Below are positions 19,737 to 64,000 of a stretch of DNA of 64,000 nucleotides, piece after piece. Source of the stretch: Ectocarpus siliculosus (Eukaryota > Sar > Phaeophyceae > Ectocarpales > Ectocarpaceae); contig FN649729.1 of assembly GCA_000310025.1 (NCBI GenBank), forward strand, positions 3,077,320 through 3,141,319. Reading direction: 5' to 3'. The notes beneath the pieces are model-generated. The model saw nothing but the letters and a program-made list of their open reading frames with translations. It did not search any database and was not told the DNA's origin. The first letter of the stretch is position 1. The number at the start of each line of letters is the position of its first letter. The position numbers and the translations under genes were made by a program.

Positions 19737-23212
<3,476 letters not shown>

Positions 23213-27200: not shown

Positions 27201-29828
27201 GGATAATTGTTCTTACCTGCTGCTTGACAGCTGCGAGTTTTGCGTCAGACAGCTTGGCTACCAGCTCATTTTGCTTCTTCTCCATAAACTCCCTCTGCCT
27301 GTGTGCCTGCGCAGGGATAGACCACAACCGACCATCGTTGATCGAGAATCCACCATACATGACGCGCTCAAGAGGTGCCACATTTGGCGACCATGCACCG
27401 TTGTGGACGGGAATGATCCCTTTTTCCCCGTCCCCTACTTGAAGAGTCCCCCCCCCCCGTCCCCCGGGGTTGGGTTTTCGTCGCTTGGCAACCACGTTGT
27501 AAAACAAGCCAATTCACTTCGTGAACTCGGCAACCAGGTTACCTTTTGTTTTTTTACCTCTGTTTTTTTTTTTTTGCGGTAACGATAATCGTGGTCGAGT
27601 AAATCATGTTGTGCGGGGTCGAGAACCCTCACTCCGCGCAAGGGGGATGATCGCACCACGTTGTTTTAAAATGGTCAAGCATCCTCGAGGCAGTTACACA
27701 GTGCTTACAACTGCTGTCTCTGGACGTGAAAGCGCCAGAAAATAAATTAAGTCATACGCAGCTGTCATCCGTACGCAAGGAAGTAAGCACAAGGTGCCGA
27801 ACACCCTTAGCAGGATGCAGCGCACCCTCCATGCGACTCGCCGAATACCTCACGGCGCTCGCGCTTGGTGATGTGAGAGCCTGGTCTGGTGAGAACCCGG
27901 CGTGCTCCGTCCCGGCTTTGTAGGGATGCGAGGTCAATGGTCTAACGACTACGGCAAGCACGACTATGAGTACACCCCCCCCTCCTACTTGAAGAGCCTG
28001 GTCCGGTGAGAACCCGGCGTGCTCCGTCCCGGCTTTGTAGGGATGCGAGGTCAATGGTCTAACGATTACGGCATGCACGACTGTGCGTACCCTCCCCCCC
28101 CCCCCCCCTACTTGAGATACGTGATCTGATCGTTCACAACATGACGGGATCATCAGCCAGCCGGATAGGCTTGGCAGACTACCGTGGAACCGACAATTCT
28201 CCCGGCGGTGTCGACTAACGAGAACAAGCCGCTCCTTCTCTTCACGTGGTTGACACACGAACAAACACGGGCGGGCTGCGATGCTAACGAAAACAGCCGG
28301 TCTCACGCTGTCTGCCTTTTTGGAGCCTCAAGAGCATTGTGAAACACGATACGATTCTAGTAGATTCAAGCGAGCTCCCCCAGAGCCGTCGTCCTGGTAA
28401 GCACTCCTATCATGTTTGCGCGTGCTTGACTTCTTGCTTGGCAAGCTAACGAATACCTAGCACAATGATTTCCAATAAGGCACTGGGGAAAACCTGTTGG
28501 AAGTACCAACTTGGTAGCAGTGTTCTATGACCGACAGGAGACCCGAATATTGTGATCATCGACTCTCAGGTCAACGCTGCTTATAGTATCCAGCCGTAAT
28601 AACCTGAAGGGTGTTCACAGTACATACCTCGAGAGTCTGGGCCATGAGATCTGCCGCGTCATCCCCCCCCCCGCGCCCCCTTCGGCCGCCGCCGCCGGCC
28701 CCTCCACCCCTCCGAAACTCGGTGCTGTCGCAGGACCCGTCCGAATCCCCATCGGTGTCCGTTCCTCCTCCCTGGATTGGAAGACAACGTGCATCTAGTG
28801 AAGCCATGAAACAATCCTCCTCTATCTAGACTGTGGGTGTAACGCAGAGGAGGCGTGGGTTCTTGCAGAAAACGTTTTTGTCGGCAAAGCATGGAACGAA
28901 TTTCGTTCTCTCGGGTTTCTACCTCTCGACAAACTCGTGGAGTGGGGAACAAGACCCACGGAGGGGAGAAGCTTCAATCTCCTTGTCGGCGGCCGCCCGA
29001 AACGACCCAACGCCGGATCCGACCTGATCTGATTGATCTGTACACGTGAAACCAGCCGCATTCGTTCCAGTGTTTTCTTTTGTATTTGTTTCGGGGGTGA
29101 CAATGTTTTCGGCCTTCAACGTATTACTTTAGCCAAGCAACTTTGCCTCAAGATCTCACAGCGAGTAAGACTACCCATTTTACGGCCTCCGAATGCTTAC
29201 GGCCAACAATTGGGTGTTCCGCGTTGCTCTCGAGACCGGAAACTCTCATTTCCCGGCACCATGCCGGGAGTGTCGCGCTCTTGCCGGCCCATGCCATCCA
29301 TCGTCACGGGACGCTCGGGAAGAATCGGCTCATGCCTAGACGTGTTTATTCGCAACACACGTACAACACACCTTCCTGTCGTCGTCTACCCCTCCTGCCA
29401 GCGACGAGCTCGCCTCCTCTCCGGCGCCGCCCCCACCTCCGCCTTTGCCCCCACCCCCTCCTTTGTCTTTGGTCTCTCCCCCACCCTTGCCTCCCCCCCT
29501 CCCCTCCCGGGAGTCAACCCTCCCCCCAACTGNNNNNNNNNNNNNNNNNNNNNNNNNNNNNNNNNNNNNNNNNNNNNNNNNNNNNNNNNNNNNNNNNNNN
29601 NNNNNNNNNNNNNNNNNNNNNNNNNNNNNNNNCCACTTCCCCCCCCACCTGCGCCGCCCGCGGCGGGACCTTTTGGCTCCGAGCTTCCGCCCCCGCCGCC
29701 TCGGCGGGACGAGGCGTGGCGAGTGCGGGAAGATTCTGCGATGTCCTCTCCTTGGACGAACCTTTTGTACGCTTCCTGTTTTTGTTTTGATTGGGTTCTC
29801 GTTAAGATTTGTGCGCTTCGTTGTTGGA

Positions 29829-40700: not shown

Positions 40701-43700
40701 ACAGCTTTACCTGCTAGACTATATGCTGTTTGACAAGTTGCACTCACCAGGATTTCGTTGGTCCTGGAATAGACGTACATGACCTCGCTACCGCGGTTCA
40801 GCGTGAGCGATTCGAGGACGGAGCCGTTGGCCGTAAAGCTTTTGATCCACATGTACGGGTCGCGGTGGTCTTCCTGTTTAGGATATTGGGACCACGAGTG
40901 TTCGGGAAAGTCGCAAGCTCGCTACTGGTTCGTTCGCCCCAACTTGGTTGGCACCATGTATTATTTCGAGCAACGTGTAGCACAAGAACAAGTGAACGCG
41001 TTGAAAAGGGATTGGGTCATGTCCACGCGTCTAGCTTGTCGTGAGTATCGTGGACATACGGGAGACTACAATAACATGAAAACCTCCGGGAAATCACGAT
41101 TGCACCGGCGATTTAGAAAACATATCCGGCATTGGCCCATATGTATTGCCGGTTAAACTCCTATGCTCTCCCCCAGACAATTGGGTCGCCTAGCCCCTTC
41201 CCTGATGCGTAAACCCACAGGCAGAGTGAGAGACAGTTCAGAGGAATGAAAAGCGTCAATATGAAGTTGGCATGCTCAGACTCTTCCGCATAGAACATGA
41301 CCATCGTGAGAGCGCATTTTACCTCTGAAAGTGGCCAAACACTGGAGCAGTAGCTCCTCCATACCTTTCAAATCTTTTCTAGTCGACAACGGCATGAATT
41401 CGCCGACAAAGAACTGTGAGTGTCTCCTCCTCCAGCCAGCACTTCTACCTAACTAACTTTTGAATCTGAACTCAAAAGGAGGCTCGCATCCCGACGGACT
41501 GCCGCCTTCTCAACGAAAATCGTTCAGCAACGGATGTCTTGGCTCCGACAACGATGAAGAACGCAGCGAAAAGCGATACATCGTGCGACTTGCAGAATCC
41601 GGTGAACCATCATCAACTTCCACTCTATCACGGCCAGCACACCATGTTCTCGTAGACTCCAAGGTATCCATTGATCCCTCCACCGGCCACAATGAAGCCC
41701 TTGCTGAATGGCATGAGCGTCTCGAGCCGGGCCGTGTGCGGCAACTGCGCGTGCAGCGTCTGCTTGAGCTCGAGGAATGGGGAGGCCTCCGTAGCGTCGA
41801 AAACTAGGATTAAGGACCCGCGCTGGTTCATCCCTCCCCCTCCTCCTCCGCTGATAGGTCGGACGGCGCGTTGGTTGGTTGATCGGTTAGTTGTTTTGTT
41901 CGACAACGCGGTTGGTGTTTTTCTCATCGGCCAGTTGCGCAAAATATGCAGCTATTGGGGTGGGTTGATTAATCGGGAGGCGAATGGATGGGTGTGCATG
42001 GGCCGGTCGGTACAAGTTGACTGGCTCGTATGTCTCAACAAGCAGGAATTATGGTGTGCAACGATGAACTCGGAGAAGCGGGCAGCTCAATCGTTGGGCA
42101 AACGGTTACAGTGGAAGCATTGTAGGTCACCCTCGAAACAAAGAAGCACGGGAGCGGCCAAGATCCAACATTCCCGACACTAATCCGGTCCCTCCCTTCG
42201 CTTTGAGTGCGGGCTACCGCCCCACCCCGTCCCCCCTGCTTCACACCTTGACGCTCCGTGGTCGTCTCCATCTGTTATTGCCACCATCCGGGTGGGCTGG
42301 CCTGCCGTGCCAGGGATCCAGGCGTGGTCGGTAAAATTTCCCTGTAGATGTGCCAAGGTACGCGCACACACACGTGGTCATTCATCACAAGGCCTGCCCT
42401 GCGGTGAAGACGTGGTGGGCCTGCATCAAGGCGGACCGCACGCACGCGACGAGTCATCACCCACCTAACCATTTCGCTGCAGCAGACCAAATCGGACCGC
42501 ATCGCAGTTCCTATGGTGATAGGATGAGCCTTGCGTGTTTGCGTCCATCACGCAATTCTTCACCCCGCAAGGACCAAGCAGGTAAAAGGAACGGTGTCGG
42601 TCCTTCCCAAGAATAAGACGGACAAAAACAAACTTGGCGGTGATGTTTTTTCGCTGGATGTTCTCCGGCATATGAACGAGAGCGCCGACTGCCCCGACAA
42701 AGCTCGCCACATTGCGCAAGGATGCCCTTGAAAGTGGTTTTTGAAAAATGTGCCCTGCCGTTGGAAGGTTGCCTCGATTACGTGGCTCTGGGCATCAAAA
42801 ATGCAACACGCCTACGGTTACTATCGAACTTGCACTACTGTACTTCGAAGTGCAAGTTGGCGTGATGAGGGCGCCAGGACCCATGCAACACAATCGAACG
42901 CGCACAAATATTCCACGCGGATCACACAGAAAAAAACACGACATTGACCGACGCCTTTTGCTCGCCTGTTCCTTTGCCTGCGGCAGGATCCCGTGGGCCT
43001 TGAGTACGTTATCGGACGAGGTATACCACAGCCGCAGGTGCTGCGCCCCGCTCGTAGTAAAGAAGCCGTGGTCCCCTGGGTGGAACGCCACCCGGGTGGC
43101 GGAGGAACCGCTGTTTTGGGCGGTTTTGTCTACCTGCCGTGCGTTTTGGTCGGAATGAGCATACGCTGCTCCGGATATGTTAATAATATTGATAACAGTG
43201 TCCGCTTTCAGTTCTGGTGACGGTTGAAAGGGAGAAATCGGACAAAAATCCACCCCGATTGGTAATACAATCCGGCACCATGAGCAAGCAGCCTTGCTAC
43301 ATGGTTACCGCTGCTCCGCGTCTTGTTGGTTTGGGACGGGTTTTCCCGAATAAGAACAAGCTGAGTCGATGGACGTGACGGCAGTGTTGTCTCGTGGAAG
43401 ATCTTGGACCTCGTTACCGTGCTCTAGCCGGCGCCATAGCTGCAGCGAGCCTAGGAGCGCACTCGGACGAAACCGTCGACGAAACCAGCGCGCGCACGCA
43501 CTCACTCACAAGGAACGTGCGCGCGTGTGCATTCCATGAGCGTGAAAGCGGCAACGTCGTGCCCACCCCACCCTCAATTTTGGCCCAAACGTCGTAGAAA
43601 TGAACTTGTTTCGCACCTTCTCCTTTTCCCAGTTCCAGACCACGATATTGCTCTCAGGCTCGGTTGCGGCAGTCACGAGCCATTTGCTGTCCCCCGAAAA

Positions 43701-46449: not shown

Positions 46450-48353
46450 CCTGCTAATGTACTCACGAACGGAAGCGCTCCCCGACAGCGAGTCCACGTC
46501 GTGTAGCACAGCCGACAATACAGTAGTGATGTGGAACCTTTGGCGCAATCCGGTCACAGCGACGAGCTGGTAATGCACCTACAAACTGGAAGAAGAGTGG
46601 GTGGGTGTACACGGAAGTCCAGATCGTCAAAATCTAGTCGAAACCTGTCGTGGTCGTGGTCGGTGTACGTACGATTAGTCCACAGTGTAAGCATTCGAAA
46701 CGAAAAATATATGCCGAACCGACACCAATTACGCCGCAGGTGCCGCACAAGACACAAGACACAAGACACAAGACACTGCCCGCCCGCCCATCTGATCGGG
46801 GTACAGGCGTATTTCATGCGCCCAGAGAGTTTCGATCGGATACAAGTTCAAGCGAGATCTCCAGCTCATCTAAACGTAGTGTTGGGCGGTTGAACCGAGC
46901 TGCTGCATGATGTGGCACAGATCAAAGCTGATCGGCGATGACTGTGAACATGCGACGGATCTACAAGGGACTCAGATTCCAATCGGCACGAGACCACCAC
47001 AGGATGGCTACTGTACACGATCTCCTTTTCTCTAGGATAACCATTAGTCTATAGCAAAGGACGATGCACGCGACATACGTGACCCCATACTTGTGTACAG
47101 TTTCTTTGCTCACATCAAAAACAAGAACAGAGGTTGTTCCCGTGTCCGGTTCAACAAGATAAAATACCGACAGCAGCCTCTCCTCGGTTCAACACCATTA
47201 TCAGGGATAAAGAGTCAGCCGTGTCTCCTGCCCATGTCGTGGCCACCCCACCCCACTTACACACAACAGCCTTCCTCTGCACATCGCTGTATTGTACCAG
47301 AACCAACTCAAGAGAATACCCAAATTTGCGAACCGAGGTGAGATATGTAGGTGGTGTACAGGTGGAATAGACACAGACAATTTTCGACTGCGTACGACTA
47401 GACTAGTGGTCCCACAGAAGTACGAGGCAGACAGAAAATCGACAGACCTGTGTCTTGCCCAAGGTTGCGAGAGCAGCATCCGCGCGAGAAAAGCGTTGTT
47501 CTAAGCTGCCACTATGCCCTGTTTGCACTCAACCTTCAATCGCTGCCGCACTCAACCTTCAAGCGCTGCCCAAATCATTTCATGTGTGTATGCCAGACAA
47601 TGGTTGGCCTTGAACAAATGCCGTTGGTGGCTGGCCTATATAGTTAAATGATATTTGAAGGACGGCAGAGGTAAAGAAGCTCGGTTCAATATGCTACATG
47701 TACGTGCTTCTCCGTATATGAAAAAACATTTTCGAACACGGAGAAACTCTGAAAATGAGAAACTAGTTGGCTCGTTACATTCTCCCACCATCTGTTTGAT
47801 GGGTACCTGATCGCGAACACACTTATCCCGTTCACAGCACTGTTTGTTCCCGACGCGGGCGTGGGACAGAGCACCCCTTCCCGCACCGTGATTTCCGCCG
47901 ATTCATGCCCCCCAACCCCGCCTCTTTTTCCCTCCATGGTTATTGTTTTCACTTGAATGTTGCACGCAAAATGTCTGGCAGACCTTCGGAACCTGTTCGT
48001 CACCTGAGCCAGGGGTTGGCTGTGCGTTCGGTGGTGTTTGATGCCACTTTCACCTGTGTGTCATCATGCGGGGCGCAGAAAAATGAAGCGTAGCCTCAAA
48101 ATACGAAACCGCATCCATTTGTGTAGACTAGGCCCACGTTTCGAACCTGGTCGCCGCCTTGATTCAATTTCCCTGCTGTAGTTCGCGTGTCACAGTCGCA
48201 TTATATCTATCTGCTTGTAACCTTGGCTAAGGTGTCACGCTAACCCCCGGCTACACCGATGAATTGAGCCATGGTGACGTCACCCGGCTGCACACAGAGA
48301 AACGAGCTGACTTCCTCTTCCCGAACCCCTTCCCCCGTTTTTGAATAGGCATA
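46450..48353. promoter_or_regulatory. Divergent intergenic region, CFAP57 / LRR-Cys gene
   Basis: 1.9 kb between the CFAP57 start (minus) and the signal-peptide exon of the secreted gene (plus). It contains a (ACAAGAC)n run at 46746-46776 and a 23 bp direct repeat pair at 47525-47547 and 47548-47570 (GCACTCAACCTTCAA core). No RFX X-box or other ciliary promoter motif could be defended by eye. An untranslated first exon of either gene could lie here. Confidence 0.45.
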
Positions 48354-51300
48354 ATGCTTTCTCATCCATCTTCGCGGTTCAAGCTTCTGGCGACAGCGGC
48401 GTTCGCCATCTCCTGGGCAAGTGGTGAGTTAGTTCATGCGCGTTCCAGCAGCCCGAAGCAAGCTTATACAGCACTTGGCAGGATGAACGTTTGTAGCATC
48501 TGCTCTAGGTGAGGGAGGATGCGGGCGTTGACAAGACGGTGTTTCATGTCCGCGCTGCGCCCTGTTCAGGAGTACACACGATCCTACGTCGTTCAGTTCA
48601 GCGTGAACGCCTTCGGAAAGCTGAGAGTACTGACCGGTTGCTGTTGTACGTCCATGCGATGTCCACGTGTGGAATTCTCATGCCACTTGCGTATGAGCAA
48701 CCCCACACACACTGAGGCTGGGAATTGTTACGATGTGGTACAATGGGTCTCCATCCTCAAAAACGGTTAACCACGATTCACGCGTATCACACGTATCATT
48801 CTCAGGTTTGAACTCTTGCCTGGATGTCACCGACGCTGTGAACTACAAGTGTGCACCTGGCACGACGAACATGTAAGCGTATCATTTCCTCATCCTTCTA
48901 CATAGTGACGATACGGGGAACGCTACGTTTGGGCAGCCATGTCTTCAAGTCTCTCCTGCATATCATTGCTGTCCCACCTCGCTGACAAACGATCGACAGA
49001 TTTCCCACATCGCAGTGATGCTGGTTTGGGGTACAATGTTGTGACAATCAAAGTTGCGGTTGAATCTTGAGAATCGCTAGGTGGGACATTTCGTGGCATT
49101 CTCGAAGAGACAGGCAACGGGACAGGCAACGATGTTTGCTTGAATGAGCATACTCGACCGGATTTTTGCATGACCGTATCTCACGTCCAAAGGAAGCGAC
49201 TTGACCTTCGCCGCGCGTCTACGTAGAAAAAGGTAGCGTGTCCCGTTCGCGCTAAAAAGCGCGTCCATCCTTGATACCGGCCTCGTAGTACAAACTACGC
49301 ATCTTCATGTGGGTGAGTATTCGCCGGCATGGCGAATCTCCTAACCTTCATTCGTATCAGATACCCTGCAAATGCCTCTTTCTCTCTCTCTCTGCCCCCC
49401 CCCTCCCTCCCTCTCTCACATTCATTGAATTGTGCCGTGATTGTTGCATCCGGATTTTTCTCGCGGTCAAGATTTTTCGGGAGCGGACCTACCACGGAAC
49501 CGTGTGGAAACCTGGTGGATGCTGACCTCCCCTATCTGCAGTCCTGCTTCGACGCGGCTGGACGAGACGGTATCACCGAGATGTGCGAGAGATGATCGAG
49601 TAGGACAGTGCCTTCAACTGTGTCGGCACGGAATCAGCTGGCCGGCTGTTTCGGTCAGACTGGCTAAACCAGCCAATTTCCCCTTCTGCGCTGCCCTTCT
49701 TCTCCTCCTCAGACTCGTTTTCAACTCTGCCTTCCACGTTTACCTGCATGCGTCCCTCGATTTCTTCTGCGTCGATTGCGTTCACGTCGATCGCGGAGAG
49801 CAGTGACTTGTCCCAGTGCTCAGGATTCACGACGATTCCCGCGGGAATCTTCAAAGATCTGCCGGCTTTGGAGAAACTGTAAGTGAAACGGGGCTATCTG
49901 TGTTCCCTAATGCGGATTCTTATAACCACGCCTTCAGACAACGAAGGTCACCAATCCATTGCCACCCGTTCTTCGCGCAGTCTTGATTATCGAGCTCAAC
50001 CAACACGACTCACTCGAAAACGTGTTCTCATCTCTGATTGACTGACCCCTTACGTGTCCAGCTTGATCAATCATTGTCAAGGTTTGAGGCTCACGTCGGG
50101 TCGTTCCATTTCTAGGCAGACTCGCCTTCGTCGGCCTTCACACCAATATTTCACTCCGTCCTACGCTTATGACGAGCAATCGGAACCAATGATTTTGCTT
50201 TCGGGCGAAATTCTGGATGTTTCTATTCAAACAGGATGGTAGGCGGCGTCGAGATTCGGACGCTTGAGGTCGGAGTCTTCGATGACGTCGCCGGCTCGCT
50301 GCGTGCGCTGTGAGTTTCGTTCTTCAGGGGCGGTTCTCGTAGAAAAAAAGATCGGAAATATCGTTTTCTCCAAAGCCCTTGCCTGCGGCGAGTAAATAGC
50401 AACACATTAACGCCTGTTGCTATATTCCCGCGAAATCATGTGAAAAGAGTGATATTTCTCAACGTACTTTGGGAAGATATGTGACCTTTTTCAATGGCCT
50501 CCTTCAAAATTAGTTATGCTCGAACACGTTGTTGAATACATAGACTACGATATTACTTTCCTGTCACCTTGTCCCATCTTTCTGGCGCTACTCTGACTCA
50601 TGTGCCTGTGAAAGTCAACGGGCATCTGCGGTTGTCGTTGTTTGAAAAATCGAGAGCACTCGCGCTGTCAATCTTGCTGTACTCCTGCAATTCTGGCCTT
50701 CTTTTTCTAACCTTAGGCACGTTCAGTTCTGCCCGGAGCTGACTTGGCTGCCTGCGGACCTGTTCAGGGGCCTCTCCGGCCTAACCTATTTGTGAGTTCA
50801 GTGCTTCACCAGGCTTTGGAGGGCATAGCGCTACTATACACATCTTCTTGTTTGCTGGGTTTTCACATTTACGCCACCTTTACGCTTACTCATTGGCATT
50901 GGCAACACCGAGAAATGCATGCAAGGTGTTGGGTTTTCATACCTCCTCGCAAAACATCACTGTGCCCACGCCCCGTTTCCTTTCGGCTACGCCACCATTA
51001 CAGGAAGATCCAGAACATCCCGAAACTGCGTTCGATTCCCGTTGGACTGTTCCAGGACACCACGGAAGTCACAGAATTGTGAGTGGATGCTCAAGCGAGT
51101 TTCAAGTTCGGCATGTTCTTACCCAACGGTTCATTCATTTTTCAGGTTCATACTACAGAGTGATGGAGAGCAAGTCACAGGACGTTGAGAGATTCTCTTC
51201 ACACGGACTTCTTCGGAAACCAACGAGGTATTGAAAAAAGGCATACATGTACGGATGAAGATTTCCTACACAGGAAACAGAAAGCTACGATGCCTACCAT

Positions 51301-54300
51301 TTCGCCTCCACCCTCCCGGACTATCGCTCGTTCTCTAGTGCTTACGCCTCACCACACGATATTTGTTCCCCGTTATGGGACTTGTGATAAATAGTCGATG
51401 CGGAGATTATAGGGAGGTACGAGATACAACGCGCCGTGAATAAGCAAGCTTTATTTGCATGCATCCTGTGCGCTCCTCGCTTGTTGTGTGTTGGCAGAGA
51501 TCTGAGTGGCAATGGCCTGACCGCGCTGCAGCTTGGGACCTTCCATGGGCTCACCAAAGTCGTCACATTGTGAGGTCACATTAATTTTATTTCCTTCACG
51601 AGGGAGTGACAGACAATGGTCATGTCAAGCTCGAAGCATCGGTGTTCGGTCGATGTTGTCGTGTCGAGATGGCGCTTGGCAAGGTCATACGGCGTTGTCG
51701 ACAGTGGCTGGCGAATGGATGGGTAGCCAGCAGTATGTGTTGCGGTACTTGGGGGGTGCTGTCTTCGAGTCGGTGAAACGGTTGAACGAGTCGCCGTCGC
51801 TGCGATCAAAGTATTTCAAAGCTCGTGAACTGCTTGTTGCGAAACTGGTATGCCACAATGTAACCTTGTTGCAGCTTCGATTAAGGAAGGAGGTATGGTC
51901 CACCTGTGTCCTCGACTTGATTGTACAACACAGTCGTGACCACCCATCCAATTGCTGCGTCTTTGGAATCCACCGCCGCGTTCGCCGCTGTTCGGCTTGC
52001 TCTTTCGTCGAATAGACCTCTTCAGTACAACTCGCTCACGACCCTTCCTGCCAGCATCTTCGAGCCGCTGACATCGCTCCAGAACATGTAAGACCACCCC
52101 ACCGTCGAAGCAAGTAAATTCTACCTGCCTGGTTGGTCGGTTTATCAGATCATCGACCTCTTCCTCTTGGAAGAGAAGGTTTTGGTTAGAGAGAACAACA
52201 GGAGACAGACAGGGAGAGAAATACGGGTTGCTTCTTAGTGATGGAGTAGAGGGTGGCGTCTTCGTGAATAGTATTCCTTTCTGATAGTTATTTAAACTAC
52301 ATAGTGCTGCTCCGTGTTTCCTAGAACGTCGACTTCATGACTTCACTTCTAATCCGTGAAAGCGCTACAACTGAGTTGCCTATTGACATCGCTTCAATAG
52401 AGAGAATTTCTACCAAGTTTCCTGTTCACTGGCACCCTCGACGGACTACCCGGCGAGTATTGGCATCGCAAACATCCCGTTCCGTCTCACGCAACCACTT
52501 CTTGTCTGTGCTTTTCGCTTGGGATGGGGCTTTGGCGGCAGGTGGTTGCATGGTGACGGCATGTTCAACATGCAGTGCCTTCCTGACAGGTGAGATGGAA
52601 AAGCTGAATGATGACCATACAGCCCTACACAACTGGACAAACAGGTAATTTAACACACCCCAGAACGTGCTTGCTTCCTGCCTGTGAAGTTATTCGCTTA
52701 TATCCTATCTACGCGTTGCGTTTGGGGTTCTAAGCTCACGAAGGCCTGCATGCCCTTACAAGATGCACCATCTCATGACAAATACCACTGCTCTCTGCTC
52801 TCTCCCGCTGTCCCTTGTATGCCTTCCTGGCCGGTCGGCTTGTGCTCAGCACTGCCGATAACATCTACCTTGCTGACGAGTCTATCAGGAACGGCACCTG
52901 TAGTGAGTGTGATTTTTCGTGTGATATTTGCCCTTCTACAGTACAGTAGTATTGTTGCGGTGTGGAGTTTCGGGAGGAGGTCTACGGTCGGGGAAAAGTT
53001 CGAGAATTTGCTGTGTTTTGGGGTTTTGTCAATGCCGTTGTTGTCGCCGTTGCGTTGCGTTGCGTTGCTGGCGCGTTTGCGGCATACAGAACGGCTTCCT
53101 CCTCCACCGGTGATGCGAACGACCGCTTGTTGACGACAGAGTGCACCCCTGCCAAGGCCGTCTTCTGCCCTAAGCAGACCAGTTGCTGCCCTGGGACTCG
53201 AGGCTACACTTGCGGTAAGCTCGTCTTTCCGGCGCTCGTAGTCCCGCTAGATAGCCCTACTTGCTTGCTGAGTTAGCTTGCCGTCGAACTTGCAACAGAC
53301 TTTTAACGGCCGTGGAAGGAAAGCCATTGATCCCGTGTTTACATCGAGCGTACATGACGTAAAGCAGGACGAGAAATACGGTACGCATCAAGGCTTGCCT
53401 CCTAGGAAGCCGGCCGACATTGGCTGTACTCCGTCTCTCTCGCGCAACCCCGTGTGTTGCACTTACACCTCGCGCGTGCTCGAAAGCACTAGTCCATTCC
53501 ACCCCCGACTGTATCGCACGTCTTGCGTTGTTGTTTGATTCGACGCGCACCCGGGCTGGATTCCTCTCACGATGAACAAACCTCACGTTCGTCAATCTGG
53601 GTCTCCTACTTCCAGAAGCGAGGACGGCGCCTGGACCCACGCCCCACCGGAAGTCTAAACCAGGTGGCTACCACTGAATATTGGCAAACCTCGCGGAAAT
53701 TTTGCAATATCCCGTAGATGCTCTCGTTCGGCTCTTGTCTTCACAGGCAATAATGGACCAGAAATATGTATGTTCGTCATGCACCCGACGCTGCCACGTC
53801 GAGAGAGGCACTGCATCTCTCACCGGATGTCCGCACATTGTTCCATAATTTGCACAACGAAGCCGCGTAACCCATTCGGCCGTACGTGCTTTGGAGTGAT
53901 GAACGATGACCGCACTCACTCACGGTCTCGCAGTCGTGTGTGAGTACAACTCTGCCTTTGACATGCGAGTATGAAACCCGACCGAATCGACACCTGACAC
54001 AGGTGGAGAGACTTGCGGCGTTTTCACGGACATCGAAGGATTCGTCGGCAAGACCGCCAAGGGCACCGCCTGCTGCCCGGTGAGAGTTCACAATGTGATA
54101 CGAGCTGTCACGTGACAGTCTCGATCAGACGACAAGTGCCTGGCAATTGTTCACCATCGTTTGTCATCAAAGTCCTTCCCGGGCCGCGAGATTGATGTCG
54201 TTTTCTCACACCATAATACGCACTTCGTTGACCTTCTTCGCGCGTGCCCCTCCCTTCGTACAGCTCGCGTGCGGGGAGTGTGGTGGCAGAAGGTGTCGCA

Positions 54301-57300
54301 GAAGGAGGCGGAACGGATTGACCAGGGATGAGTGCTGCGCTAGCGACGTCCTCAAACACAAGGGATCTTGCTCTGAACCAGGCGCCGCTGCTCCGTGCGT
54401 CATCGAAGGTGAGCCCCGTCGATGCCGAGCACACCCCAGTGACAATCGCGTGCAATCTGATGTCCCTCGCACCTGTATCAGCCCGTCTCGTTCTCGACGA
54501 GCAAACCGTTCGCAATTTCGAGCGATTCTCTTCCCACCGTTCTCACGAAGAGCAGTGAGCGTCTTTGCGAGTGCGAATTCCTCGCCTTCTCCGCATGCGC
54601 CAGTCGCTGCTTGCCCCCGACCACATCGAGTTTCCTCCGCTTCGTTTCATTCGCCTCAATCCTCCCCTTCCACTCGTCCGACAACCAACAACCACGTCCA
54701 GAGGAGATGGAGCGCACACCAGAGCCCATCACTGAGCCGAGTCCCGCGCCGACCCAAGAGCCCACGCTCGAGTCTACCCCTGAGCCAACGCCTGGGCCAA
54801 CGCCTGAACAAACGTCTGAGTCAACGCCCGCCCCCACGCTTCACCCCACGCCGGCGCCAACACGTCAGCTGACGCCCGTGCCCACGCTTCAGCCGACGTC
54901 CCCGCCTACTTGTCAGCCAACGCCGGCGCCCTCGCTCCACCCCACCCCGGTGCCGACACTTCAGCCCACAAGCGCGCCCACGCAAGACCCACCCTTGAGT
55001 CAACGCCTGAGCCCGCGCTTCAGCCAACACCCGCGCCCACGACTCAGTCCACCCATGAGCTGATGCTCGACCCGACACCTGGCGCGAGAAATCAGCAACT
55101 GCGTTCGTCGAGTCGAACTACCAGCAGTACTATGATGTATCCGCCCACCGTTCTCGCGCTTGGCCTCGTATGTGTCTTTGAGGTTGCACACGTAATGCCT
55201 ATTCACGAATGCGCGAGTCCCTACCTGACCCCGAATACGACGAAATCCTCCGTATGCACATCCTTTCGATTATTGTCCAACCCCCGTCGCGCCCCTCACC
55301 AACTGCCAACTACGTCCAGAGGGAACGGAGCCCACACCTGCGCCCACGCAAGAAGAGCTGACGCCTGACCCCACACCCGGGCCCACGCTTCAACCCACAA
55401 CCGCGCCCACGCTTCAGCCAACGCCCGCGCCCGCGCTTCGCCCCACACCGGTGCCCACACTTCTGCCCGCCCCGGTGCCAACGCAAGCGCCAACCCTTGA
55501 GTCAACGCCTGAGCCCACCCATGATCTGATGCTCGACCCGACACTTGCGCCAGGTAGGGAGCATCTAGCAGCTGCATTCGCCGAGTTGAACTACCAGCAG
55601 ACTATGATGTATCCGCCCACCGTTCTCGCGCTTGGCCTCGTATGTGTCTTTGAGATTGCACACGTAATGCCTATTCACGAATCCGCGAGTCCCTACCTGC
55701 CCCTGAACACGGCGAAATCCTCCGTGTGCATATCCTTTCGATTATTGTCCAACCCCCGTCGCGCCCGTCACCAACTGCCAACGACGTCCAGATGGAACGG
55801 AGCCCACACCTGCGCCCACGCAAGAAGAGCCGGCGCCCGCGCTCACGCATGAAGAGCCGGCGCCCGCGCCCACGCATGAAGAGCTGACGCCTGACCCCAC
55901 ACCCGGGCCCACGCTTCAGCCAACGCCCGCGCCCGCGCTCTGCCCCACACCGGTGCCCACACTTCATCCGGCACCGGTGTCAACGCAAGCGCCAACCCTT
56001 GAGTCAACGCCGGAGCCCACCCATGATCTGATGCTCGACCCGACACTTGCGCCAGGTAGGGAGCATCCAGCAGCTGCATTCGTCGAGTTGAACTACTCGC
56101 AGTACTATGATGTATCCGCCCACCGTTCTCGCGCTTGGCCTCATGTGTGTCTTTGAAATTGCACACGTAATGCCTTTTCACGAATCCGCGAAGTCCCTAC
56201 CTGACCGCGAATACGACGAAATCCTCCGTGTGCAGATCCTTTCGATTATTGTCCAACCCCCGTCGCGCCCGTCACCAACTGCCAACGACGTCCAGAGGGA
56301 ACGGAGCCCACACCTGCGCCCACGCAAGAAGAGCCGGCGCCCGCGCCCACGCATGAAGAGCTGACGCCTGACCCCACACCCGGGCCCACGCTTCAGCCCA
56401 CAACCGCGCCCACGCTTCAGCCAACGCCCGCGCCCTCGCTCCGCCCCACACCGGTGCCCACACTTCATCCGGCACCGGTGCCAACGCAAGCGCCAACCCT
56501 TGAGTCAACGCCGGAGCCCACCCATGATCTGATGCTCGACCCGACACTTTGCGCCAGGTAGGGAGCATCCAGCAGCTGCTATCGTCGAGTCGAACTACTC
56601 GCAGTACTATGATGTCCGCCCACCGTTCTCGCGCTTGGCCTCGTATGTGTCTTTGAGATTGCACACGTAATGCCTTTTCACGAATGCGCGAGTCCCTACC
56701 TGCCCCTGAACACGGCGAAATCCTCCGTATGCATATCCTTTCGATTATTGTCTAACCCCCGTCGCGCCCCTCACCAACTGCCAAACACGTCCAGAGGGAA
56801 CGGAGCCCACACCTGCGCCCACGCAAGAAGAGCCGGCGCCCGCGCTCACGCGTGAAGAGCTGACGCCTGACCCCACACCCGGGCCCACGCTTCAGCCCAC
56901 AACCGCGCCCACGCTTCAGCCAACGCCCGCGCCCGCGCTCCGCCCCACACCGGTGCCCACACTTCATCCCGCACCGGTGCCAACGCAAGCGCCAACCCTT
57001 GAGTCAACGCCGGAGCCCACCCATGATCTGATGCTCGACCCGACACTTGCGCCAGGTAGGGAGCATCCAGCAGCTGCATTCGTCGAGTCGAACTACCAGC
57101 AGTACTATGATGTATCCGCCCACCGTTCTCGCGCTTGGCCTCATGTGTGTCTTTGAGATTGCACACGTAATGCCTATTCACGAATGCGCGAGTCCCTACC
57201 TGACCGCGAATACGACGAAATTCTCCGTGTGCAGATCCTTTCGATTATTGTCCAACTCCCGTCGCGCCCCTCACCAACTGCCAAACACGTCCAGAGCGAA

Positions 57301-60300
57301 CGGAGCCCACACCTGCGCCCACGCAAGAAGAGCCGGCGCCCGCGCCCACGCAAGAAGAGCTGACGCCTGACCCCACACCCGGGCCCACGCTTCAGCCCAC
57401 AACCGCGCCCACGCTTCAGCCAACGCCCGCGCCCGCGCTCCGCCCCACACCGGTGCCCACACTTCATCCCGCACCGGTGTCAACGCAAGCGCCAACCCTT
57501 GAGTCAACGCCGGAGCCCACCCATGATCTGATGCTCGACCCGACACTTGCGCCAGGTAGGGAGCATCCAGCAGCTGCATTCGTCGAGTTGAACTACTCGC
57601 AGTACTGTGATGTATCCGCCCACCGTTCTCGCGCTTGGCCTCGTGTGTGTCTTTGAGATTGCACACGTAATGCCTATTCACGAATCCGCGAGTCCCTACC
57701 TGCCCCTGAATACGACGAAATCCTCCGTGTGCAGATCCTTTCGATTATTGTCCAACCCCCGTCGCGCCCGTCACCAACTGCCAACGACGTCCAGATGGAA
57801 CGGGGCCCACACCTGCGCCCACGCAAGAAGAGCCGGCGCCCGCGCCCACGCAAGAAGAGCCGGCGCCCGCGCTCACGCAAGAAGAGCTGACGCCTGATCC
57901 CACACCCGGGCCCACGCTTCAGCCCACAACCGCGCCCACGCTTCCGCCAACGCCGGCGCCCGCGCTCCGCCCCACACCGGTGCCCACACTTCATCCCGCA
58001 CCGGTGCCAACGCAAGCGCCAACCCTTGAGTCAACGACTGAGCCCACCCATGATCTGATGCTCGACCCGACACTTGCGCCAGGTAGGGAGCATCCAGCAG
58101 CTGCATTCGTCGAGTCGAACTACTCGCAGTACTATGATGTATCCGCCCACCGTTCTCGCGCTTGGCCTCATGTGTGTCTTTGAGATTGCACACGTAATGC
58201 CTATTCACGAATGCGTGAGTCCCTACCTGCCCCTGAACACGACGAAATCCTCCGTATCCTTTCGATTATTGTCTAACCCCCGTCGCGCCCCTCACCAACT
58301 GCCAACGACGTCCAGAGGGAACGGAGCCCACACCTGCGCCCACGCAAGAAGAGCCGGCGCCCGCGCCCGCGCAAGAAGAACTGACGCCTGACCCCACACC
58401 CGGGCCCACGCTTCAGCCGACGCCCGCGCCCACGCTTCAGCCCACACCTGTTCGACATGTATCACCCGACCCTACACCTACGTCAGGTAACGACACTCGG
58501 CAGAAAACGGTAATGGCAAACGTAATGTTCCGTTGATGGTGCAGAATGTTTCATGTAGTTCATCAGGGAGGCCATGTCGAGGAACAGGGTTGCGGCACCG
58601 CGCTCACGCAAGCTCTCGTTGCACAGGGATACCGCATTGCCTGCTCTCGCGCGGCAGACACTCCAAGGATCTCCACCCTAATATTGTCGTACGAACGTGG
58701 AACTCGACCGGGTGGTTTTTGCAACACAGCGGAAGCGACTTGCGGCGAGTACACGGACATTGAAGGAATCGTCGGCATAAATGACAACGGCACCGTCTGC
58801 TGCCCGGTGAGGATTACTACATTTTTGCCACTCCACCCCCAAAAATCTCGGATCCTCCGGCACTGACCTCACATGATGTTTACTATCTGACGTGCATCAA
58901 TGCCTGACGCGTAATGGTCGCATCCGGCTTGCTAGCGTGTGAAACGTAAAGGCTCGCGAGATTGATACGTTCGCCTATCACGCTGCCTACCAACAGCTTG
59001 GATGCGGGAGGTGTGGTGGCAGCGGATGCTACAAGAACAAGCCGGACGGATTGGGTGGGAGGGATTGCTGCATCAGGGGAGTCCTTAGAAACAAGCTTTA
59101 CTGCTCCAAGCCAGGCGCGACAGCCCCGTGCATCATCGAAGGTTGGCCCTATCGGGAAATCCAAAAAGCTACATATCCGATAGTCAACCACATGTTTTGT
59201 TACTGCACACCTCACAGCTTGTACAAATCGGCGGCGGCTGCAAGACCATACAACATTACTAAAGCTCGTTCCCTTTCGTTCGGATCCGTGTGCCTGCCAT
59301 GCTCCTGCATCTAGAGGAGGCGAAGCCCACCCCTGAACCTTCCCCTGCGCCAGGTAAATAAGTTGGGTAGCAAGTACTCAGTTGTGCATCACCTGGACAG
59401 TACGGCATATGTTGTCTTTTGGGAAAGGCGTATCTGGGCGTGTCAAGTCGAGGGATAGGGGGCCGTCCCCGATGCGTACATGTCTATCGCTTCATACACC
59501 GAGCCGCGCTGCCCGCTCGTCCGCAAAAGCTTCAGAGTGAATGACGTATCTAATCATGCACACCGTTCAGCAGCAATCCATGAGGATCGCGACTTTGCCT
59601 TCACCGGCTCGGCCGATTGACTCCTGATGCACAGGGGTCGAGATGTGTGGCATGTACACGGACATTGAAGGGGTCGTCGGCGCGAATGACAACGGCACCG
59701 TCTGCTGCCCGGTGAGCTACATGATGTTCATTATCAGACGATCACTAACGACTCACGTGCCATGCCCAGATCCGGCTCGTTGGCGTGTCAAAGGTAATGT
59801 TCGCGAGATTGATGTTTTCGCCAGTTACGTCCACCGCCGTCACCTCCCCCATGCACCCCCTACAAACAGCTTGGATGCGGAAGGTGTGGCGGCAGCGGAT
59901 GCGGCAAGAACAAGCCGGACGGATTGACCAGGGGGGATTGCTGCATCAGTGTCGTCCTAAGAAACCAGCTTTACTGCTCCGAGCCGGGCGCGACAGCCCC
60001 GTGCATCATCGAGGGTAGATCCCATCGGGACATTCAACAGGCTACATGCGTACAGTACTATCGATACTGTAGGTTGAATTGCATGAAGATTTCGAGAGCC
60101 AAGAATGTGTTCGTCACTGCATGCACACAGCCTAGACTACTATGTATACGAAGCACAAATCAAGTCGACGGATGCAAAGACCACGTAACTCCAAATACAG
60201 CAGTATGGCCTTGTTTTTTTATTGTATATTGTGAACACCTCTGTAGCTATAATAGTGTCTCGACGTACGCTGTTCTTCAATCGCGTGCTCCCTTAGGGTT

Positions 60301-63300
60301 TCTCTGTCATGCAGCTCCATCCAGTAGTGTGTGTGCACCTCTTCGAGTTCCGTTACTTCTGTCCTGACCTGCCCATCACACCTTCGTTGCCTCCGGACAT
60401 GACACCTTCGTTCCCTTTCCTTCGGACGCTGCAATAACTCACAAATGCCAACATGTGTGGCCCTGCCTCCTGCGTCTAGACGAGACGAAGCCCACATCTG
60501 ACCCTACGCCTTCGCCAGGTAAATCATGATAGAGTAGCAGTGTATTCAGGAGTACATCACTGTTCGATATCCTGTGGAGAACACGCCCCTGGGAGCGCCA
60601 TGTTAGGGTAGGGGGCCGTCCCACAGTGCGAAAATAATGTATCTCTTCCAACACAGAGCAGCGTTGCTCGCTTGTGCACAAACGGTTCGCAGTGAAAGAC
60701 TTATGGGTTCACACCTACCGTTCCACACAATATTCAAGCATGATATCACTTGGCCGACGAACAACGTGGAGCCCCCCCCATTGACTCCTGCTACACAGGG
60801 GGCGAGACGTGCGGCATGTACACGCACATCGGGGGAATCGTCGGCATGAGCGCCAAGGGCACCGTCTGCTGTCCGGTAGCGAGGAGTATTTTCTCAAGTT
60901 TAACAAGTAGCGTGCTGTGTGGCCTTCACTGCTAGCAAGTCAACGGCGATGCGCAACATACTGCGGCACACCGTCGCCCGATACCCGCCACTTTGGTGCG
61001 CCTTTGGCGCAGTATTGACTGTCAAGATACGTTACCCGTACCGTACACACCTCCTCGTGTGTTCTTCCGCACCAACAGCTTGGATGCGGGACGTGTGGGG
61101 GCCGCAATTGCAGCAAGAACAAACCGGACGGATTGACCGGTACCGACTGCTGCATCAGCGGCGTCCTCGACCACCAGCCGCATTGCTCTGAGCCTGACAG
61201 CACAGCCCCGTGTATCATCGACGGTGAGCCCTTTCACGGAAAGAGGGAACATGCCAGGGAAACGCCTGGCACAGGATGACGCCCGTGTGCCTCCGATTGC
61301 CAAATTGAACGGTCGGGATACCGATGTCCGTTCGTCCACCTTTGTCTACCTTCGCCCACCCATCCTTCCATGTATGCTCGAATATCTATCCACTCTTCAG
61401 GGCCCATCGGAAAGAAGACCACGACGAGGCCGAAGAAGCCCGTTACAGGTAACCGATGCTCACATGCTCACATGCTCACATTGCCCTGATGTATCCTACC
61501 ACGTGAGTGAGTCCGCGCATCACGCACGGTATCACATACTGCCGTCCGTTGGCATCGAATGTGCTAGAAATTGTTGTGATCATCAGACCTTCGATTTGGA
61601 GGAGCTACCGACGAACGCCAAGCTGGCGTCTCTCTAGATTCGCGAGGTGAAATGGCCCGTTGCTCCCACCTAAAAATGATATCGTCGTGACCGATCGCTG
61701 ACGACACAGGTGGTCGCCAATGCGGCATCAACGCCCCCCCCGGCATCGTGGGAGGCAACGACAGCGGCTCCGTCTGTTGCCCGGTGAGAGCTCCTCCCAC
61801 GTGGGTAGTTGCAAGGCTTGGACTTCACGAGTGCATCACCAGCACATGGCATGGCGCATCGCGACACACTCTCGTCGCCCTTCGTGCAGTTCCGGACATA
61901 TTGTCTAGGCGCTCGTGATTGGCTTGTGCGTTGTAAGCACCAAAACCTCAGTCATTCTGATCTGGTCACGTATGTTCTCCTCGTACCGAAACAGCTCGCT
62001 TGCGGGCAGTGTGGCGGCAAGGGATGCTCCAAGAACAAACCGGACGGATTGACCGGTGACGACTGCTGCGTGAGCGGCATACTCGAACGCCAACAACGTT
62101 GCTCCGACCCTGGCGCCACAGCCCCGTGTATCATCGACGGTGAGCCCTTGCATGGAGAGAGTGTTGGAGACGTCGGCGAAACGTAGGGAGCAACTGCGTG
62201 TGTCTCGACCTGCGCAGCAACAACTTGACATTACACCTTCATCTCCTTCCGTTCGTCCCACACTCTCTTCGGATCCCTCCAACAACCACAAATAACAACA
62301 AATCACCCGCGCGTGGCCCTGCCTCCTGCATCTAGAGGAAACGAAGCCCACACCTGAACCAAGACCTACGTCAGGTAAAATCGCGTTGAGTAGCGACTTA
62401 CCGGACGTGTGCTTCCCCCGGGAAGTACGGTGAACGATATTCCGTGGAAAAGGCAAATCTGGAAGTACCTTGTCGAGAGAGGGCCGTCCCTCGTACGCAT
62501 CAAGTTTTTCATATTCACACACAGACAAGCGTCGCTCGCTCGTCCCCCACGGCTTCGGAGTGAAAAGAGATACGGACACACACACTGATCAGCAACCCGC
62601 ACGATCACTACTTTCCCTTGGCCAACGAACGTGGACCCCCCCCCCAATGACTCCTGGTGCACAGGGGGCGAGACGTGCGGCATGTACGCGCACATCGCGG
62701 GAATCGTCGGCATGAGCGCCAAGGGCACCGTCTGCTGTCCGGTAACGAGGAGTAATTTCTCAAGTTTAACAAGTAGCGTGCTGTGTGGCCTTCACTGCCA
62801 GCAAGTCAACGGCGACACCAAGCACACCTTCCGTCGCCCGTTGCCCGCCACTTTGGTGCGCCTTTGGCGCAGTATTGACTGTCAAGATACGTTACCCGTA
62901 CCGTGCACGCCTCCTCGTGTTTTCTTCCGCACCAACAGCTTGGATGCGGGACGTGTGGGGGCCGCAATTGCAGCAAGAACAAACCGGACGGATTGACCGG
63001 TACCGACTGCTGCATCAGCGGCGTCCTCGACCACCAGCCGCATTGCTCTGAGTCTGGCTGCACAGCCCCGTGTATCATCGACGGTGAGCCCTTTCACGGA
63101 AAGAGGGAACACGCCAGAGAAACGCCTGGCACAGGATGACGCCCGTGTGCCTTCGATTGCCCACGCGAACTCTCGGGATACCAATCTGTTTCCATTTTCA
63201 CACGTCTACCTTCGCTTTCTCCTCCTTCCGTTCGTGCTCGTCCGCCAAATTGGTTAGGGCCCACCACAACGAAGGTCACGCCTAAGCTGAAGTCGAAGCA

Positions 63301-64000
63301 GAAGTTCACAGGTATTTGACCTTCAAATAATACTCAATACATACCACATCGTGAGCCCGCGCATCACCATACGGTGCCACATCTCCCCTCCGTTGGCATC
63401 GCACGTGATTACACGTTTGTTTGATAGAGAGTCTCTGTTTGTTTCCCGGTTGTTCAATTCGAAAGAGCTCCTGGGAGCGCCTCGCATGGGACGGTAGCGG
63501 GTTACTCTCACCAACTATTTTTGTCATTGTGCACGATCTCAAACACGATAGGCGGTCGCCATTGCGGCATCAACGGCCCCCCCGGCATCGTAGGAGAACT
63601 CTACAGCAGCTCCGTCTGTTGCCCGGTGAGAACTGTTCCAACGTGGGTTGTTGCAAGGATCTAACGCTAGTGTATGAACGCATGACGCGGCTCCCTCTTT
63701 CGTCGTTCTTTGGGCCGTGCCAGACAATATGTAGGTGTTGTGATCATATCCTTGTGAATACCAACCTGAGCTATCCCCGAATTGTGCTCGCGTGTTCCTC
63801 CCCCACAATTTCAGCTCGCGTGCGGGCAGTGTGGCGGCAAGGGATGCTCCCGGAACAAACCGGACGGGCTGACCGGAGATGACTGCTGCGTGGGCGGCGT
63901 TCTCAAACACCACGGTCAATTTTGTTCCGACCCCGGCGCCACAGCCCCGTGCATTTTTCGAGTACCCCTTCATAGGCAAAGGCACTTGAGGAACCCTTCG
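48354..64000 (+). CDS. Secreted LRR / Cys-module / Pro-Thr-rich modular protein, 3' end off the window
   Basis: Exons: 48354-48423 (signal peptide, core LLATAAFAISWA), 48806-48872 (CLDVTDAVNYKC cap), six LRR exons to 52087, 52542-52589, 52850-52902, 53140-53214 (CTPAKAVFC, SCCPGTRGYTC), then Cys-module exons, a Pro/Thr array and linkers (separate entries). At least 38 exons join with matching phases, apart from two Pro/Thr exons. The start is supported by a clear signal peptide in phase with the next exon. The LRRs follow LxxLxxxxFxxLxxL. The Cys modules carry 10 cysteines each. The Pro/Thr parts resemble an O-glycosylated stalk. No kinase, GTPase or membrane segment is seen before the edge. 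Extracellular or wall location with ligand or partner binding through the LRRs is inferred. The broken first Pro/Thr unit could instead make the transcript stop near 55063, with the rest a second gene or a decaying copy. Confidence 0.75.
49804..52087 (+). repeat. Six LRR exons, one repeat per exon, all phase 2
   Basis: Exons 49804-49878, 50235-50309, 50717-50791, 51004-51078 (75 nt each), 51498-51569 and 52016-52087 (72 nt each). Every exon opens with one base completing a codon and closes with two bases before a gtgag or gtaag donor, so all are phase 2-2. Examples: FTTIPAGIFKDLPALEKL, LTWLPADLFRGLSGLTYL, GLTALQLGTFHGLTKVVTL, SLTTLPASIFEPLTSLQN. The second (GGVEIRTLEVGVFDDVAG) is the most diverged. 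The neighbouring 48 nt exon 52542-52589 (WLHGDGMFNMQCLPD) is also phase 2-2 and looks like the C-terminal cap with its Cys. Confidence 0.9.
52850..52902 (+). other. Asymmetric phase 2-1 adaptor exon
   Basis: A 53 nt exon encodes TADNIYLADESIRNGTC. It enters in phase 2 (completing AGC) and leaves in phase 1 (A before gtgagt). It is the only exon that converts the phase-2 LRR half to the phase-1 Cys/Pro-Thr half. The following exon 53140-53214 accepts phase 1. Confidence 0.75.
54003..54408 (+). repeat. Cys module 1 (exons A1 and B1)
   Basis: A1 (54003-54079) reads GGETCGVFTDIEGFVG and ends TACCP. B1 (54264-54408) reads LACGECGGRRC, an Arg-rich stretch, DECCASDVL and SEPGAAAPCVIEG. A exons are phase 1 in and 0 out. 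B exons are phase 0 in and 1 out, so the pair is a symmetric 1-1 unit of 10 cysteines. B1 is more basic than the later copies (CRRRRRNGLT where others have CSKNKPDGLT). Confidence 0.85.
54703..58486 (+). repeat. Tandem array of eight Pro/Thr-rich exon-intron units (~500 bp each)
   Basis: Exons: about 54703-55081, 55320-55553, 55792-56055, 56296-56557, 56795-57055, 57295-57555, 57795-58082, 58316-58486. Each starts after acgtccag in phase 1 and ends GCGCCA G before gtaggg (the last at gtaacg), so they are 1-1 and mutually interchangeable. Encoded peptide: TEPTPAPTQEE, ELTPDPTPGPTLQPT, PTPVPTLHPAPV, APTLESTPEPTHDLM. Introns of about 233-240 bp are as similar between units as the exons are. That shows the whole exon-plus-intron segment was amplified. 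Exon length varies by small in-frame PT insertions. Unit 1 lacks one base and its donor relative to the others. Unit 4 has an extra T before its donor. Confidence 0.92.
58730..59353 (+). repeat. Cys module 2 and Pro/Thr linker
   Basis: A2 58730-58806 (EATCGEYTDIEGIVG, GTVCCP), B2 58997-59141 (LGCGRCGGSGCYKNKPDG, APCIIEG) and linker exon 59315-59353 (EEAKPTPEPSPAP). Phases are 1-0, 0-1 and 1-1. The linker is a miniature form of the Pro/Thr exons and uses the same CCA G donor. Confidence 0.85.
59635..60518 (+). repeat. Cys module 3 and Pro/Thr linker
   Basis: A3 59635-59711 (GVEMCGMYTDIEGVVG), B3 59870-60014 (LGCGRCGGSGCGKNKPDGLT, DCCISVVL) and linker 60480-60518 (DETKPTSDPTPSP). All splice phases match. 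The B3 linker intron is enlarged (about 465 bp) compared with the B2 linker intron (about 173 bp). Confidence 0.85.
60799..61448 (+). repeat. Cys module 4 and Lys-rich linker
   Basis: A4 60799-60875 (GGETCGMYTHIGGIVG), B4 61079-61223 (LGCGTCGGRNCSKNKPDGLT, DCCISGVLDHQPHC) and linker 61401-61448 (GPIGKKTTTRPKKPVT). Unlike the Pro/Thr linkers, this one is basic. Phases are 1-0, 0-1 and 1-1. Confidence 0.87.
61710..62374 (+). repeat. Cys module 5 (second subtype) and Pro/Thr linker
   Basis: A5 61710-61783 (GGRQCGINAPPGIVGG, SVCCP) is one codon shorter than type-I A exons. B5 61995-62139 (LACGQCGGKGCSKNKPDGLT, DDCCVSGIL). Linker 62336-62374 (EETKPTPEPRPTS). Phases match throughout. Confidence 0.87.
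62665..63311 (+). repeat. Cys module 6 and Lys-rich linker
   Basis: A6 62665-62741, B6 62939-63083 and linker 63258-63311 (GPTTTKVTPKLKSKQKFT). A6 and B6 are almost identical to A4 and B4, introns included, marking a recent duplication. Confidence 0.87.
63552..63960 (+). repeat. Cys module 7 (second subtype), at window edge
   Basis: A7 63552-63625 (GGRHCGINGPPGIVG, SVCCP) and B7 from 63815 (LACGQCGGKGCSRNKPDGLT, DDCCVGGVLKHHGQFC). It pairs with A5 and B5. At the end, the usual IIDG codons before the donor are altered (ATTTTTCGAGTACC). The B7 donor is therefore uncertain, through sequence error near the edge or a real change. Confidence 0.75.

Follow-up and report, generated by a model that had tools for sequence, protein, structure and literature searches.

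Results

Structure of the candidate gene

The window analysed here is the whole stretch of 64,000 nucleotides from the brown alga Ectocarpus siliculosus (contig FN649729.1, positions 3,077,320 to 3,141,319), and its subject is a candidate gene on the plus strand at 48354-63962, in which leucine-rich repeats (LRRs) are joined to cysteine (Cys) modules and to a stalk rich in proline and threonine (Pro/Thr). As modelled, 40 exons splice into a single open frame of 1437 codons, which agrees with a preliminary description of this DNA that had placed a phase-2 LRR half and a phase-1 Cys/Pro-Thr half in one gene. The encoded order is a signal-peptide-like start, a Cys-bearing N part, six LRRs, a Cys-rich cap, and seven Cys modules together with Pro/Thr stalk exons; the gene continues beyond the window, with its 3' end past 64000. 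All 39 modelled introns are GT..AG, with a median of 238 bp and 3' ends of CAG (31), TAG (seven) and GAG (one), and two of them span two Pro/Thr exons that were excluded from the model. Third codon positions have a G+C content of 0.692 (0.689 in the LRR half alone) against 0.528 in the introns, as expected of coding DNA. The exons and arrays are the following:

48354..48423 (+): exon 1, signal-peptide-like start, phase 0-1, from exon reading and hydrophobicity
48806..48872 (+): exon 2, Cys-bearing N part, phase 1-2, from exon reading
49484..49569 (+): exon 3, Cys-bearing N part, phase 2-1, GAG acceptor, the least certain exon
49713..49878 (+): LRR1 with the stretch preceding it, phase 1-2
50235..50309 (+): LRR2, 75 bp, phase 2-2
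50717..50791 (+): LRR3, 75 bp, phase 2-2
51004..51078 (+): LRR4, 75 bp, phase 2-2
51498..51569 (+): LRR5, 72 bp, phase 2-2
52016..52087 (+): LRR6, 72 bp, phase 2-2
52542..52589 (+): LRR C-cap exon with Cys, phase 2-2
52850..52902 (+): bridging exon, phase 2 to phase 1, where the halves meet
53140..53214 (+): Cys-rich hinge exon, phase 1-1
53616..53663 (+): linker exon, phase 1-1
53747..53767 (+): linker exon, 21 bp, phase 1-1
54003-54079 (phase 1-0) and 54264-54408 (phase 0-1) (+): Cys module 1
54702..55082 (+): Pro/Thr exon 1, not in frame, usual donor lacking, excluded from the model
55320..58486 (+): Pro/Thr stalk array, repeat unit about 500 bp
55320-55553, 55792-56055, 56795-57055, 57295-57555, 57795-58082 and 58316-58486 (+): Pro/Thr exons, phase 1-1
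56296-56557 (+): Pro/Thr exon 4, of frame-breaking length, excluded from the model
58730-58806 and 58997-59141 (+): Cys module 2
59315..59353 (+): Pro/Thr linker exon L2, phase 1-1
59635-59711 and 59870-60014 (+): Cys module 3
60480..60518 (+): Pro/Thr linker exon L3, phase 1-1
60799-60875 and 61079-61223 (+): Cys module 4
61401-61448 (+): linker exon L4, phase 1-1
61587-61646 (+): linker exon X4, phase 1-1
61710-61783 and 61995-62139 (+): Cys module 5
62336..62374 (+): Pro/Thr linker exon L5, phase 1-1
62665-62741 and 62939-63083 (+): Cys module 6
63258..63311 (+): linker exon L6, phase 1-1
63552-63625 and 63815-63962 (+): Cys module 7, end uncertain, second exon without the usual donor
60457-62131 and 62313-63954 (+): block of two modules duplicated in tandem, 74% identical on average over 1722 columns

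Symmetry of nearly every unit had also been claimed, and it holds for 28 of 33 units when each Cys module is taken as a unit; counted singly, 21 of the 40 exons are symmetric, and the Cys exons are so only as pairs. Exon 3 was included because without it exon 2 and LRR1 would be joined out of frame. The signal peptide that had been assigned to the LRR array is retained here as a hydrophobic leader from 48354, whose 12-residue Kyte-Doolittle maximum of 1.79 is a measure of hydrophobicity only. At the junction of the two halves, the bridging exon keeps the frame and is the sole 2-1 exon outside the N part. Frames that open with an ATG and a hydrophobic start lie nearby, at 52763, 52775, 52819 (100 codons) and 53032 (33 codons); unspliced, all four stop before the hinge exon. 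The signal AATAAA is absent from 48300-64000, although the organism may use other signals. Transcription of both halves as one mRNA would be the simpler reading of this arrangement.

LRR half

Pfam LRR_8 matched the LRR piece alone with an E-value (E) of 8.9e-22, and longer pieces of the model at 2.3e-20 and, for a piece of 486 residues, 2.6e-19. When a profile of the six LRR exons was run against the frames of the window, six matches were obtained at E 4.1e-11 to 1.5e-8, the next standing at 0.77. LRR2 to LRR6 share only 26-55% DNA identity (10 ungapped pairs) and therefore are not recent copies. A degenerate, intronic LRR-like stretch at about 51147-51250, recognised by eye and missed by the LRR profile, contains a stop and a frame change and may be a lost LRR exon. 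Among the best 60 of 205 relatives of solved structure, the LRR part came closest to LRRTM (1.1e-33), the acid-labile subunit (2.8e-29) and VLR-A (5.6e-29), with a designed LRR protein also near the top and the Nogo receptor, Toll and LGR4/5 ranked lower; these relatives are mostly extracellular LRR proteins and designs derived from them. Neither a GTPase nor a kinase was matched in the two pieces of the model that were scanned, in line with the earlier statement that Cys modules and a Pro/Thr stalk follow the LRRs in place of a GTPase.

Cys modules and stalk

Each of the seven Cys modules consists of two exons, one of 74-77 bp (phase 1-0) and one of 145-148 bp (phase 0-1), and all 14 exons are open as modelled. 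Selection acts on these modules: the ratio of non-synonymous to synonymous change (dN/dS) is 0.28-0.62 in 20 of 21 pairs, the exception being modules 4 and 6, which differ by five non-synonymous and no synonymous changes, one of which adds a further Cys near the end of module 6. Among the 29 DNA matches listed between modules, 25 span 84-193 columns, near the size of one exon, and four extend through introns (330, 427, 431 and 1722 columns).

Eight Pro/Thr exons were recognised, of which two, the first and the fourth, are damaged, and the frame is kept when both are skipped. The modelled stalk of 494 amino acids has 29% Pro, 20% Thr and 10% Ala, and its 144 X-P pairs include 42 AP, 35 TP and a single SP. 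The units resemble one another in exon and intron alike, with proportions of synonymous (pS) and non-synonymous (pN) differences of 0.049 and 0.031 and an intron difference of 0.053 (15 comparisons among six units, one of them the damaged fourth); therefore, the array is young, with weak constraint at most. By these comparisons, recent duplication is a feature of the stalk and Cys arrays, and the LRR exons are diverged. The preliminary description had invoked the shuffling of LRR exons as a means to diversify recognition, a proposal which this distribution of recent copies does not bear out.

No Pfam family matched the Cys module, and a piece of 536 residues with modules 2-7 gave none at E<=0.1; a sequence-profile search of the PDB with the module likewise yielded no relative at E<=1. 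Insulin-like growth factor and hydrogenase matches in the PDB, at E 0.32-0.83, were rejected as chance. Structure prediction for the 48-residue second exon with an alignment of seven rows reached a mean predicted local distance difference test (pLDDT) of only 46.8.

Relatives of the Cys module in bacteria and possibly in viruses

No relative was confirmed when the algal alignment was used to search prokaryote genomes. Bacterial relatives were caught by scanning prokaryote genomes with a motif drawn from the algal module, which marked at least 119 stretches. Of 129 motif-bearing frames from bacterial and viral loci, 19 also fitted the downstream Cys spacing and 16 were kept; the remaining three (L008, L048 and L123) were dropped as Cys-rich runs of low complexity. 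In all 16, the module is present as a single copy, 2-11 residues from the end of the open frame. A profile built from these 16 bacterial modules ranked the seven algal second exons above all other frames of the window (E 1.6e-8 to 9.4e-5), the best other frame reaching 0.11 and the best reversed decoy 0.22, and a profile-profile comparison of the algal and bacterial modules gave a probability of 98.2%. With the motif removed, four of 88 tails were still found at E<=1e-3 against none of 1760 shuffled ones, and 10 of 88 against three of 1760 at 0.1. The algal profile alone, run at E<=0.001 on 52 genomes of one bacterial class, matched three, one of them in a frame with an internal stop. These results support a distant relation between the algal and bacterial modules.

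The proteins that carry the module in bacteria were compared with Pfam in 16 cases, nine from the motif-scan set of 16 and seven from searches of genomes; the edge of the fetched DNA cuts at least seven of the proteins compared. Two hosts passed the cutoff for GH16 (L121, E 4.5e-16; L153, 4.4e-15) and two that for polysaccharide lyase 14 (L128, 1.2e-32; L154, 5.7e-36). Among six hosts compared with NCBIfam, three show similarity to a hyaluronate-lyase family but fall far short of its cutoff, as is also the case for a beta-helix model; by eye, the other seven hosts of the motif-scan set are like these three. The module is rare: at E<=1e-8 it was found in at least three of 195, at least two of 293, at least 13 of 282 and two of 58 genomes of four bacterial groups, counts that include genomes already known as carriers and, in the first three groups, rest on the scoring of a part of the first-look candidates.

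The fold predicted for the bacterial module, with algal rows in the alignment, is fairly confident, with a mean pLDDT of 85.9 for the best model and values of 63.5-72.9 for the remaining four. Foldseek found no match to this model in the PDB at E<=10. In a library of viral structures (BFVD), it returned A0A3G5AEX5 of Satyrvirus (E 2.6e-3, TM-score by query 0.67, 37% identity) and A0A6N1NJ43 of Tupanvirus soda lake (E 0.088, 36% identity), both of them uncharacterised proteins and neither at E<=0.001. Two relative searches of viral contigs confirmed nothing there, and a longer motif gave no match; a shorter one marked 23 loci, where the frame from 9757 of L011 matched the bacterial profile weakly (20.7 bits, E 0.00066). 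Perhaps, then, the module is also shared with giant-virus proteins. Taken on its sequence relations, the algal Cys module is a new element, a putative small domain with bacterial relatives and with no match in Pfam or the PDB.

Other features of the window

Upstream of the gene, a full-length 5.8S rRNA match lies at 41519-41660 on the plus strand (75 bits, gathering score 42) and is perhaps a dispersed rDNA fragment or a pseudogene; Rfam gave no other match in the window at gathering scores, nor within 38-48 kb at E<=0.1. Further features are listed below; the kinesin and RRM matches pass the Pfam cutoffs and, together with those to uL14 and 5.8S rRNA, mark the DNA as eukaryotic:

3637-5659 (+): pieces of a kinesin motor domain, E 2.9e-23 and 3e-32
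15492-16100 (-): RRM protein, E 7.6e-19
20912-21406 (+): ribosomal uL14 match, E 1.6e-4, just under the Pfam cutoff
27876-28100: 117-bp unit duplicated in tandem, 93% matches
about 29530-29635: run of unknown bases (X in frames), an assembly gap or masked stretch

Discussion

The reading that we favour, with a probability of about 0.5, is that 48354-63962 belongs to one gene for a secreted, multi-domain matrix protein, whose LRR head would be fixed to the polysaccharide wall through Cys modules borne on glycosylated stalks. In this proposal, the LRR head with its Cys-bearing ends would bind a protein or peptide partner, the Pro/Thr stretches, probably O-glycosylated, would act as extended spacers, and the Cys modules would bind matrix polysaccharide and thereby fix the protein in the wall. 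Such a protein could link wall polysaccharide to a protein of the cell surface, or report on the state of the wall, in an LRX-like manner but with other parts. The stalk and Cys arrays would expand and contract by tandem duplication, which is permitted because their borders are in phase 1, and the LRR head would remain fixed. Tails on polysaccharide-cutting enzymes usually serve to hold polysaccharide. Given that relatives of the module are carried by bacterial polysaccharide-active enzymes, the likely function therefore shifts from that of a receptor towards that of a wall-anchored protein.

Several observations weigh against this proposal. The union of both halves on one mRNA is deduced from the modelled splicing, and polysaccharide binding is suggested by the company that the module keeps in bacteria, where 12 of the 16 hosts passed no Pfam cutoff for a polysaccharide enzyme, with at least seven of the 16 proteins edge-cut. 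The scores of the bacterial relatives are in part inflated by the algal origin of the motif, and the algal profile alone, at E<=0.001, recovered two (G735 and G630) of the four genomes of that one class where a mixed profile had already detected the module, and missed the other two (G005 and G635). The PDB is rich in LRRs of animal ectodomains, which partly explains the similarity of the LRR part to them. No membrane span or anchor was seen in the model, which covers the part of the gene inside the window. In addition, the damaged stalk exons, two in eight, and the donor missing from the final Cys exon may indicate that the locus is in part decaying.

Among the alternatives, the presence of two adjoining genes, namely a secreted LRR gene that ends at about 52.9 kb and a Cys/Pro-Thr gene that starts at about 53-54 kb, with the joined frame as a product of the modelled splicing, is unlikely, although the most probable of them. 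The phase switch sits at the junction (52850-52902), near which the ATG frames with a hydrophobic start are also found; nevertheless, these frames stop, when unspliced, before the hinge exon, AATAAA was not found in the region (with the reservation on other signals given above), and the bridging exons are in frame. Rather less probable is a mucin-like protein of the matrix with a structural or adhesive role, whose LRR head merely aids assembly. The large share of the protein taken up by stalk and Cys arrays, more than half, speaks for it, and the resemblance of the LRR part to ligand-binding ectodomains speaks against it.

We give slightly less credit still to a decaying relic in which the Cys and stalk array is a pseudogene tail. 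The damage to Pro/Thr exons 1 and 4 and to the last donor, and the low constraint on the stalk exons (by the pS, pN and intron values given above), are what such a relic would display, but none of the 14 Cys exons is interrupted as modelled, 20 of the 21 module pairs have a dN/dS below 1, and the damaged exons can be skipped with no change of frame. The least probable of these explanations is an immune-type receptor that would vary its recognition through shuffling or alternative splicing of its LRR exons, an idea put forward for LRR-ROCO genes. Its exons would suit this role, being 72-75 bp long and in phase 2 as in ROCO genes, and skipping any one of LRR exons 2-6 preserves the frame; against it stand the divergence of LRR2-6, the fact that the profile finds no other LRR frame in the window, and the lack of a GTPase or kinase in the scanned pieces and of a membrane span in the model.

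If the favoured reading of a wall-held LRR protein is correct, it would bear on wall sensing and anchoring in brown algae, which are largely open subjects, by providing a concrete protein to test. The part of a review on the macroalgal matrix that deals with this states that no molecule of the signalling pathways discussed there has been biochemically characterised (PMC8307928). Apart from that reading, the Cys module is a putative small domain common to bacteria and this genome, and perhaps to giant viruses, with a binding role that can be tested.

Comparison with known systems

The combination of LRRs, Cys module and Pro/Thr stretches was not named in the titles and abstract openings listed by the literature searches, which is no proof of its absence. 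A close gene structure is that of brown algal LRR-ROCO genes, to which the preliminary description had already pointed. As far as the relevant parts of the report on Saccharina japonica go, LRR-ROCO genes have 72-bp phase-2 LRR exons, and 15 non-ROCO sequences with shuffling-type LRR exons exist, most of them with LRRs only (Teng et al., 2024, PMC11378527). The candidate shares with both kinds of gene the layout of one LRR per phase-2 exon of 72 bp or near (PMC11378527), and to this extent the link stands. It does not extend to the GTPase: ROC-COR was not matched at E<=0.1 in either scanned piece of a gene that runs past the window end, and the candidate, unlike LRR-ROCO, has a hydrophobic leader and a Cys/Pro-Thr half. 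The oomycete CBEL proteins, as described in passages of PMC3532174, are secreted stramenopile proteins in which CBM1 modules occur with a proline/threonine-rich hinge, a layout that the candidate, if secreted, would resemble; CBM1 and PAN gave no match in its scanned pieces. The same paper reports no CBM1 in Ectocarpus, and the term leucine-rich is absent from its main text (PMC3532174).

With the animal extracellular LRR proteins (VLR, LRRTM, Toll and LGR), the candidate shares the type of LRR, and it differs from them in its Cys modules and in the gene structure of its second half. VLRs also end in a Thr/Pro-rich stalk. Chimeric arabinogalactan proteins (AGPs) are defined by a stretch rich in Ala-, Thr- and Ser-Pro dipeptides next to a folded domain, and carry hydroxyproline and arabinogalactan glycans; the AP and TP pairs of the stalk, with its one SP, agree with such a dipeptide composition. 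Chimeric AGPs are expressed in brown algae, according to part of a report (PMC11468063). The C-terminal module of secreted bacterial proteins has the same pattern as the algal one, CC-x3-CG-x-CGG-x2-C ... CC ... C ... PC, but is single and terminal, whereas the algal copies are tandem, internal and split by an intron, with a longer first part.

The closest parallel in design is found in the plant LRX proteins, which, in the portions of PMC8398075 that treat them, consist of a signal peptide, an LRR domain, a Cys-rich part and a Pro-rich part; the extensin part ties the wall to the membrane, and the LRR domain binds the receptor kinase FERONIA (PMC8398075). The LRR domain is common to both, and the cap, the hinge exon and Cys module 1 of the candidate lie between LRR6 and the stalk. 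The differences are that the candidate stalk has no extensin Ser-Hyp(n) motif, sought as SPPP, in its 494 amino acids, that it is interleaved, together with linkers, with the modules, that seven Cys modules akin to the tails of bacterial proteins are present, and that the LRRs are split into phase-2 exons. Because the extensin motif was sought and not found, the resemblance to LRX is, by analogy, one of working and not of descent, and the candidate is presumably no LRX member. On a broader and more doubtful view, which we put forward tentatively, brown algae would have evolved an LRX-like wall sensor independently, its extracellular LRR head being fastened to the wall by tandem copies of a small disulfide-rich module that bacterial and giant-virus proteins have in their tails and that the algae either acquired from these or hold in common with them, its reach and grip being tuned by the duplication of phase-1 stalk and anchor exons.

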